Shown piece by piece: positions 33,412 through 35,883 of a stretch of DNA of 64,000 nt. The notes beneath the pieces are model-generated. The model had not been told where the DNA came from and did no database searches. It saw only the letters and a program-made list of their open reading frames with translations. Numbering within the stretch: position 1 is the first letter of the stretch; each line of letters opens with the position of its first letter. Source of the DNA: Lentimicrobium sp. GTDB lineage: Bacteria > Bacteroidota > Bacteroidia > Bacteroidales > Lentimicrobiaceae. Location: contig JAHYJC010000005.1 in NCBI GenBank assembly GCA_019429275.1, forward strand, positions 62,001 through 126,000, written 5' to 3'. Position numbers and translations under genes: made by a program.

Positions 33412-34740
33412 TTATTTAAGTCCAAAGGCAGATTTAACCTGGTCAACATAGTCAGTACATTCCCAGGCAAACAGTTTTACTTTTTTAAAGATCCGGGTTT
33501 CTCCGTTAATTACTTTATTAAAAGTATCACCATTTGAATAGTAAACTTCAACTTCTTCTTCTCTCGGATCACGGCCAAAATGGCCATAACTGGCAGTCTG
33601 GGTATATATAGGATTACGAAGTCCGAATCTGTTGATGATAGAAAACGGACGCATGTCAAACAATTTATTTACCACTCCGGCAATTTCTCCATCGGTAAGT
33701 GCTATGCCTTCTGAGTTAGTGACTCTTGCTGAACCATTAGTATTTACATAAAGTCCAACAGGCTGTGCAATACCTATTGCATAGGCAACCTGAACCAAAA
33801 CCTCATCGGCAACTCCGGCAGCAACAAGGTTTTTGGCGATATGCCGCGCTGCATAGGCTGCCGAGCGGTCAACTTTTGAGGGATCTTTGCCCGAGAAAGC
33901 TCCACCGCCATGCGCTCCTTTGCCGCCATAAGTATCAACGATGATTTTTCTGCCGGTAAGCCCGGTGTCGCCGTGCGGCCCACCGATTACAAATTTTCCG
34001 GTGGGGTTTACATGTAAGGTAAAATTATCGTCAAATAACAATTTGATATGATCGGGCAATTGCCTGACTACTCTCGGAATCAGAATTTCACGAACGTCCT
34101 TTTCGATTGCCTGCCGCATTTTTTCATCACCTTCCTTTTCGGGAAGTGATTGATCAGCAAAATCGTCATGCTGGGTTGAAATAACTATAGTATCAATTCT
34201 AACCGGATGATTATTATCATCGTATTCAATGGTAACCTGCGATTTTGAATCGGGCCTGAGGTAAGTCATCTCTTTTCCCTCTTTGCGGATTTTGGCAAGT
34301 TCCTGCAAAAGTGAATGTGCCAACTCAATGGGCATAGGCATGAGGTTCTCCATGTCGCGGGTGGCATAACCAAACATCATTCCCTGATCCCCGGCACCTT
34401 GTTCCTCAGGGCTTTCACGCATAACTCCTCGATTGATATCAGCCGATTGTTCGTGAATGGTTGATATAATCCCACAGGATTCGCCTTCAAAACGATACTC
34501 GTTCTTGGTATATCCTATGTCTTTTATTGTTTTTCTTACAACTTTATGCAGATCAACATAACCTTCAGTTCTTACTTCGCCACTGCAAACCGTAAGTCCC
34601 GTAGTAACAAGCGTTTCACAAGCTACTTTTGAGTTTGGGTCGAAGCGCAGAAACTCGTCGAGCAGCGCATCAGAAATCTGATCGGCAACTTTATCAGGAT
34701 GCCCCTCCGAAACGGATTCGGATGTAAAAAGGTAAGCCAT
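33412..34740 (-). CDS. metK: S-adenosylmethionine synthase
   Basis: Makes S-adenosylmethionine from methionine and ATP in the cytoplasm. The 442-residue protein shows [52 protein letters not shown] and [20 protein letters not shown], covering the methionine, ATP and metal sites. It is longer than the ~385-residue enterobacterial enzyme because of insertions, as in other Bacteroidota. It is monocistronic; a SAM-II-like pseudoknot lies in its leader, which would allow feedback control by its product. Confidence 0.97.
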
Positions 34741-34796
34741 TATAACAAGCTGTTAATTAAGAAATTATGTAAGATGGAAACAGAGGATCAAAGGCA

Positions 34797-34849
34797 AGAG
34801 ATGCTTTAGCATTTTTTTTAATGGTTGCAATCAATCAAATCTCTCCATT
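34797..34849 (-). ncRNA. SAM-II-like riboswitch candidate in the metK leader
   Basis: A 53-nt H-type pseudoknot on the minus strand. Stem P1 is AATGG (34849-34845) with CCATT (34824-34820). The loop segment AGAGAT (34844-34839) pairs perfectly with ATCTCT (34802-34797) downstream. The P1 loop ends in ATTGCAA, and the 3' part holds GCTAAAGC. These segments, their order and the size resemble my recollection of SAM-II aptamers (ATTGCAA before P1', GCTAAA before the pseudoknot strand). The gene downstream makes SAM. No covariance search was possible. Confidence 0.62.
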
Positions 34850-34867
34850 CCGGCTTAACCGGCGGAG

Positions 34868-34875
34868 CAAAGGTA
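34868..34875 (-). promoter_or_regulatory. Possible -7 box of metK
   Basis: TACCTTTG on the minus strand fits TAnnTTTG. Transcription would start near 34862, just ahead of the riboswitch candidate, giving a leader of about 120 nt. A TTTG at the standard -33 distance is missing. Confidence 0.5.
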
Positions 34876-34942
34876 TGAATAATTTATTTTGGATTTTGGA
34901 TTTCGGATTTTCTTCGCTGACAAATTATTTTGGGGAAATGAT

Positions 34943-35854
34943 TTAGCTTGTGGTGAGTTGCTGAAAAACATCTTCAAGTCTGTTGCTCTTTTTCTGCATG
35001 GATAGAACTGTCAGTCCTTTCTCAACAGCAAACCTGAATATTTCCTGACGCACATCAGTTTCCTTGCCTGATTCTATCAGCCAGGTTTTGGACGATTCCT
35101 TGAATACCCTGATTACTCCTTTGATACATAGAAGCACTTCGGTTTTAATATCCTGATCAAATTCAACAACCACCTGTTCCGTTTTCTCATTTCTTTGAAG
35201 AAGATGATCTGTAGTGTCATCGGCAACAATTTTTCCGAAATTGATAATGATTGCCCGGCTGCACATGGCTTCAACTTCCTGAAGGATATGCGTGGAAAGC
35301 ATTACTGTTTTTTGTTTTCCGATTTCAGAGATCAGATTCCTTATTTCGAGGAGCTGATTTGGATCGAGTCCTGAAGTGGGTTCATCCAGAATCAGCACAT
35401 TGGGATCGTGTATCAGCGCCTGAGCCAAACCAACCCTTTGCCTGTATCCTTTCGACAAGGCTCCGATTTTTTTTCGCTGCTCATGACCAAGACCGGTCAT
35501 TTCTATCATTTCTTCGACCCTTTTTTTTGTATTTTTTCCCAATTTGTGAATACCTGCCACAAATTCGAGATACTCCTTAATATACATATCAGCATAAAGG
35601 GGATTATTTTCAGGCAGATAGCCAATTTTTTTTCTTACCTCAAGCGACTGCTCGTGAATGTCGAAACCGTAAACACTTGCTTTGCCCGAGGTTGGAGGAA
35701 TAAAGCAGGTGAGAATTTTCATCATGGTAGATTTTCCGGCACCATTAGGCCCCAGCAAACCCACAATTTCTCCGGGTTTGATGGAAAATGAAACATCATC
35801 GAGCACGAGTTGTTCACTGTATCTTTTGGTAATATTTGAAACTATTATTGACAT
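34943..35854 (-). CDS. gldA: ABC transporter ATP-binding protein, GldA-like
   Basis: ATPase subunit of an ABC-2-type exporter, 303 residues. Walker A is GLLGPNGAGKSTMM, the signature is LSKGYRQRVGLAQALI, and Walker B is VLILDEPTSGLD with the His switch in MLSTHI. The start (MSIIVSNITKRYSEQ) and overall length match GldA, which works with GldF and GldG in gliding and surface processes of Bacteroidota. gldF and gldG are not adjacent, so the symbol is tentative. ATG at 35854 was chosen because the longer frame overlaps the likely -7 box. Confidence 0.78.
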   Translation of the reverse strand: MSIIVSNITKRYSEQLVLDDVSFSIKPGEIVGLLGPNGAGKSTMMKILTCFIPPTSGKASVYGFDIHEQSLEVRKKIGYLPENNPLYADMYIKEYLEFVAGIHKLGKNTKKRVEEMIEMTGLGHEQRKKIGALSKGYRQRVGLAQALIHDPNVLILDEPTSGLDPNQLLEIRNLISEIGKQKTVMLSTHILQEVEAMCSRAIIINFGKIVADDTTDHLLQRNEKTEQVVVEFDQDIKTEVLLCIKGVIRVFKESSKTWLIESGKETDVRQEIFRFAVEKGLTVLSMQKKSNRLEDVFQQLTTS

Positions 35855-35875
35855 GAGGCTGCTTAATTGAATGAA

Positions 35876-35883
35876 CAAAGGTA
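35876..35883 (-). promoter_or_regulatory. Possible -7 box of the gldA-like gene
   Basis: TACCTTTG on the minus strand, about 22 nt before the chosen ATG. No convincing -33 box. The 36-108 region further upstream in this 445-nt gap up to rplM holds no gene. Confidence 0.4.

Follow-up and report, generated by a model that had tools for sequence, protein, structure and literature searches.

A SAM-II riboswitch in the metK leader of Lentimicrobium sp. and a candidate anti-aptamer expression platform in leaders of related Bacteroidota

The leader of metK, encoding S-adenosylmethionine synthetase, in a Lentimicrobium genome contains an element that a covariance-model match and comparison with relatives identify as a SAM-II riboswitch in its long-loop version (RF01726); it is followed by a strand predicted to pair with the 5' half of the aptamer. 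Genome comparison supports the aptamer with its helices P1 and P2, the promoter box, and a downstream strand best matched to the aptamer of its own leader; the resulting anti-aptamer helix would represent the SAM-free state and serve as the expression platform. We assign a probability of about 0.8 to the riboswitch and the anti-aptamer alternative fold jointly, the readout not being included in this estimate. Novelty, if any, lies in this anti-aptamer expression platform. The analyzed window is a 64,000-nt stretch of Lentimicrobium sp. (GCA_019429275.1, contig JAHYJC010000005.1, positions 62,001 to 126,000, forward strand); coordinates below are those of the window, and all features described lie on its minus strand.

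RF01726 matches at 34854–34796 with 61.7 bits, compared to the gathering cut-off of 44 (E 1.9e-9 for the whole 64-kb window), and we take the limits of the aptamer from this match. It is the sole gathering-level Rfam match in the window, and the source genome has one copy. With E up to 10, the interval 34600–35000 has matches to two families only, RF01726 itself and the alphaproteobacterial RF00521 (SAM_alpha), the latter scoring 15.8 bits where 36 would be required; SAM-V yields no covariance-model match at E up to 10 in the same interval. The initial annotation had called the element SAM-II-like and had named the SAM-II and SAM-V models as those to search with; the first fits and the second does not, and the class call is borne out by the RF01726 match together with the relatives. 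The gene downstream of the element is, as also stated there, one whose product makes SAM: metK is an ORF encoding 442 aa at 34740–33412, with the ATG at 34740, 55 nt past the aptamer end, and has relatives at 62–71% identity. An ORF named by eye as an ABC-transporter ATP-binding protein (34943–35878) adjoins metK upstream on the same strand.

P1 is formed by five base pairs between AATGG (34849–34845) and CCATT (34824–34820), and is delineated by conservation and covariation in relatives. The loop after the P1 5' strand carries GATTTGATTGATTGCAA and ends with ATTGCAA. According to the aptamer alignment, the 5' strand of P2 (34834–34827) consists of P2a (34834–34832) and P2b, UUGC (34830–34827), and the 3' strand (34810–34801, reading GCTAAAGCAT) consists of GC(U)AA at 34810–34806 and P2a at 34803–34801, with GCTAAA occupying 34810–34805; two of the three P2a pairs are formed in the window. 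The 5-bp P1, ATTGCAA at the loop end and GCTAAA had all been noted before and are present in the letters. When aligned to the RF01726 model, the window has all three core segments, GAUUUGA, UUGC, and GCUAAA, which we take to be the ligand-pocket core of SAM-II as seen in the crystal structure, and the RNA of the window presumably binds SAM. A further hairpin, P0 (CCGG-UUAAG-CCGG, 34862–34850), lies between the promoter box and P1 and is a genus-level feature. Within the genus (loci L001–L014) its sequence varies, and the stem has at least 4 bp in 11 out of 12 nonredundant leaders; outside the genus, such hairpins are barely above shuffles (184 other leaders).

The promoter is represented by TACCTTTG (34875–34868), a –7 box of the Bacteroidota type recognized by the pattern TAnnTTTG in relatives. 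This pattern is found within 60 nt before P1 in 209 out of 229 leaders, compared to a mean of 9.75 and a maximum of 17 in shuffles, and in 186 of these 209 its end lies 8 to 19 nt before P1. In Flavobacterium, positions –12 to –5 of the sigma-A consensus read TAnnTTTG (PMC9723704). The placement of the –7 box with transcription starting just before the aptamer is thus well supported by the recurrence of the box, and the start itself would lie a few bases 3' of TACCTTTG, just before P1. A sigma70-type promoter scan uses a model built for other phyla, not for Bacteroidota.

For the covariation check on metK leaders of relatives, 60 of 133 short-linker aptamers, hand-picked for variety, were aligned. 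P1 has 90.9% of cells paired, with changes on both sides at three pairs; P2b (UUGC:GCUAA) is 99.2% paired and nearly invariant, and P2a is 71.7% paired, with exchange between CG, UA, and AU. Taken together, P1, P2a, and P2b have 36 two-sided changes, compared to 16.0 (sd 3.1) after shuffling, and none of 500 shuffles is as high; pairing amounts to 88.8% in register, and does not exceed 51.7% once the partners are slid. As P2b hardly varies, it is backed by conservation, not by covariation. Among all 196 nonredundant leaders the inner four pairs of P1 are kept in 195–196, and the outer pair in 111. Judging by the alignment, P1 and the canonical P2 are conserved, and in part covarying, among relatives. 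The perfect 6-bp pseudoknot that the initial annotation had drawn, AGAGAT (34844–34839) with ATCTCT (34802–34797), can be read from the sequence, but the conserved helix is a different one: the drawn pairing is complete in one of the 196 leaders, the window's own, and on average 2.79 of its six pairs are formed both with own and with swapped partners, which marks it as a chance match.

RF01726 is found in 15 out of 19 available genomes of the window's family (all of one genus), in 165 out of 247 sampled genomes of the order, and in 63 out of 395 sampled genomes of the phylum. metK follows 229 out of 230 loci matching the aptamer pattern, many of these loci having been collected via metK itself; the set includes 120 loci added from further RNA matches (28 out of the 33 remaining in the phylum sample, and 92 among the order matches listed), and the pattern is absent from 17 out of 194 loci drawn from RNA matches. 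The one locus not followed by metK belongs to genome G493, as its second copy, and precedes an ORF resembling methionine synthase MetH (named by eye). As early as 2005, Corbino et al. (PMC1273637) noted "a few occurrences" of SAM-II (the metA motif) within the Bacteroides group; it was then described in Bacteroidetes (Barrick and Breaker, 2007; PMC2258182), and Table 1 of Weinberg et al. (2010; PMC2864571) contains the entry "SAM-II long loops, Bacteroidetes, marine, RF01726". The element had been considered notable here because of its lineage; this argument fails, since SAM-II in Bacteroidetes was published in 2005, 2007, and 2010 and is widespread in the order. One more genome (G620, locus L280) has a second SAM-II match with 45.2 bits, in which TTACAAG replaces TTGCAAC of the relatives, and GCTGAAA replaces GCTAAA; this copy has perhaps decayed or changed its specificity. 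In Flavobacteria (L096, L106, L113, L121, L133, L138, L139) a hairpin is often inserted in the linker before GCTAAA, and in L096, among others, a local TTTGACG immediately 5' of the anti-aptamer strand is a further possible partner for that strand; both observations were made by eye on the first pattern pass, which includes some wrong-strand matches.

The anti-aptamer strand of the window is predicted at 34797–34774, where it may pair with 34848–34825 by 18 bp with gaps (–16.3 kcal/mol). It was analyzed in the leaders of relatives, 229 in total, of which 227 remained after removal of those under 25 nt, and 196 were nonredundant; in the duplex, segment, own-partner, composition, and control tests leaders were cut to 140 nt after the aptamer. 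The mean energy of the duplex between the aptamer 5' half and its own leader is –16.75 kcal/mol (n = 196), compared to –12.39 kcal/mol for dinucleotide-shuffled leaders and –14.13 kcal/mol for leaders of other species. The mean complementarity z is –2.06 for the aptamer 5' half; in the other segments compared it is –0.23 (3' half), –0.11 (28 nt upstream), and +0.06 (gene start), which indicates that only the aptamer 5' half is targeted. After centering on aptamer and leader affinities, own pairs are better by 2.64 kcal/mol, a value reached in none of 5000 permutations. The effect holds with one leader per family (48 of the 196 leaders, no two of them from genomes of one family): the own excess is 2.37, 42 out of 48 leaders favor their own aptamer, and none of 20000 permutations does as well. 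At the level of individual sites, Watson–Crick counts exceed independence at five of nine positions around the ATTTG core (–3, –1, 5, 6, and 8; at position 6, 37 vs. 25), the excess being absent or slight at –4, –2, 7, and 9. At least 12 anti-aptamer pairs are present in minimum-energy folds of 92% of whole leaders, compared to 52% of shuffled ones (187 out of 196 leaders used).

The same complementarity is not seen in 27 metK leaders that lack an aptamer match, three of which, L090, L122, and L127, hold RF01726 by cmscan; their mean z is –0.16, compared to –1.40 in aptamer leaders with the same consensus query (n = 196). The signal is unevenly distributed: z is below –2 in only 47% of the 196 leaders, and it is weaker in leaders over 90 nt (27% in both bins, of 30 and 22 leaders). 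The duplex of the window is about average among leaders, and the fold of its own leader does not surpass those of shuffled sequences (z –0.14); the case for the anti-aptamer strand is made by the relatives. One more observation comes from G493, where the copies before metK and before the metH-like ORF (L199 and L206, which recur as L276 and L279) share 78 identical nt; the identity begins where P1 begins and ends with the anti-aptamer strand, and the sequences on either side are unrelated. This identity, in one draft genome, fits the aptamer and the strand being one unit, and looks like a recent duplication of the aptamer together with its platform.

These data suggest the following model. Transcription would start immediately upstream of P1. 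With ample SAM, P1 and the P2 pseudoknot would form around the ligand, and metK expression would fall by product feedback; when SAM is scarce, the downstream strand would pair with the aptamer 5' half, undoing P1, loop L1, and the 5' strand of P2, and leaving the gene ON. As the anti-aptamer pairing covers all three of these parts, it is predicted to exclude the SAM-bound fold. The OFF polarity is what we infer from product feedback and, by analogy, from the class.

The position of the strand bears on the readout. In the 86 leaders with z below –2 it lies at a median of 15 nt past the aptamer (IQR 10 to 23), and its distance to the AUG tracks leader length (r 0.83), while its distance to the aptamer does so much less (r 0.43); as far as leader sequences tell, it is tied to the aptamer rather than to the AUG. 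Between the aptamer and the gene there are no intrinsic terminator sites in the window (0 in 34500–35000), relatives have no excess of terminators (8 out of 196 leaders, with 1–8 in shuffles), and a conserved hairpin in the leader past the aptamer is not general (mean z –0.32, 8.7% of 196 below –2). Pairing of the AUG by the freed strand was considered and rejected, as the expected number of pairs is 3.11 both at the start and in control windows (n = 178). As the strand is tied to the aptamer, and there is neither terminator excess nor specific AUG pairing, we prefer a readout away from the ribosome-binding site.

Of the possible readouts we rank first, as the leading candidate at somewhat below even odds, control of transcription or of RNA life: SAM would free an unstructured leader, rich in C and poor in G, on which Rho or a nuclease could then act, and at low SAM the helix would protect it. 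The absence of terminator excess and the attachment of the strand to the aptamer agree with it, as does composition, C being about 25% and G about 12% at –80 to –33 (in the longest leaders, 22 out of 196 with at least 130 nt, positions before the AUG are off, because leaders were cut to 140 nt after the aptamer). It is the C-rich and G-poor character of the freed leader that suggests Rho; however, the C-over-G excess is only slightly higher in aptamer leaders (0.093, n = 196) than in metK leaders without an aptamer match (0.071, n = 27, the same set with its three RF01726 holders; p 0.03), and a strand complementary to a purine-rich aptamer would be rich in C and U anyway.

Ordinary translational control, in which the SAM-bound fold restricts access to the metK start, either by itself or because the leader refolds, comes second, at perhaps one chance in three. 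When the strand is free, 0.44 of the start region is unpaired, compared to 0.52 when the strand is sequestered (n = 180 of the 196 leaders, 178 for the pairing comparison above), so that freeing the strand makes the start somewhat less open; the difference is preserved in the 76 strongest leaders (0.44 vs. 0.54, p 2e-9). In the folding model this leans to translation, but the constraint alone may cause it, since the loss of openness may reflect removed partners. Moreover, the equal pairing with control windows, the 55 nt between the aptamer and the AUG, and the growth of the strand–AUG distance with leader length speak against it. The crystallized SAM-II and SAM-V are described as translational, which agrees with such control.

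It is unlikely that the downstream complementarity is a by-product of composition or shared ancestry, with the aptamer acting alone. The unremarkable fold of the window's own leader, the fact that under half of the leaders are individually strong, and the origin of the shared 78 nt from one draft genome would all allow for it; these are countered by the comparisons with dinucleotide shuffles, other leaders, and other aptamer segments, and by the centered own-partner tests with one leader per family. A chance pseudoknot-like match with no riboswitch at all has a negligible probability: the AGAGAT:ATCTCT pairing as first drawn is indeed due to chance, but 61.7 bits against 44, metK after 229 out of 230 pattern loci, and the covariation of P1 and P2 speak against such a reading.

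Returning to the preferred readout, it may be extended to a general, still tentative and rather less than even, proposal: that Bacteroidota SAM-II share a platform with neither a terminator nor start-site masking, in which a co-evolving strand about 15 nt past the aptamer refolds the sensor at low SAM, the freed leader, C-rich and unstructured, is the OFF signal at high SAM, probably via Rho, and the aptamer with the strand is mobile as a module of about 78 nt.

As a riboswitch, the element is ordinary, being of a catalogued class, in a catalogued phylum, and before an expected gene. Across 48 families within one order, the anti-aptamer strand matches the aptamer that it follows, which makes it a concrete, mutable candidate platform. 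Bacteroidota genes mostly lack Shine–Dalgarno sequences, and, to our knowledge, the action of riboswitches in this phylum is poorly known. Rho-dependent riboswitches are exemplified by the FMN riboswitch of ribB in E. coli and by mgtA, and the name of Hollands et al., 2012, is reportedly linked with them; the likeness would lie in the readout, through an unstructured leader whose exposure depends on the ligand; the aptamers are other ones, and in the metK leaders the likeness is one of composition.

The closest known system is RF01726 SAM-II, with which the window shares the sequence core, P1, P2, size, phylum, and a SAM or methionine gene downstream. It differs in having a short linker without the inserted hairpin of Flavobacteria, in the additional genus-level P0, and in the anti-aptamer strand, which is absent from the published descriptions of Bacteroidota SAM-II and their platforms that the search covered, so that an earlier account may exist elsewhere. 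RF00521 (the metA motif) has the same fold and core; many of its members are reported to have intrinsic terminators, of which none was found in the window leader, and the metA RNA of A. tumefaciens binds SAM and discriminates against SAH (PMC1273637). SAM-V, reported from marine Alphaproteobacteria and Bacteroidetes, is an H-type SAM pseudoknot, as is the window element; its own P2a helix includes the Shine–Dalgarno sequence (PMC6061858), whereas in the window the AUG lies 55 nt beyond the aptamer.
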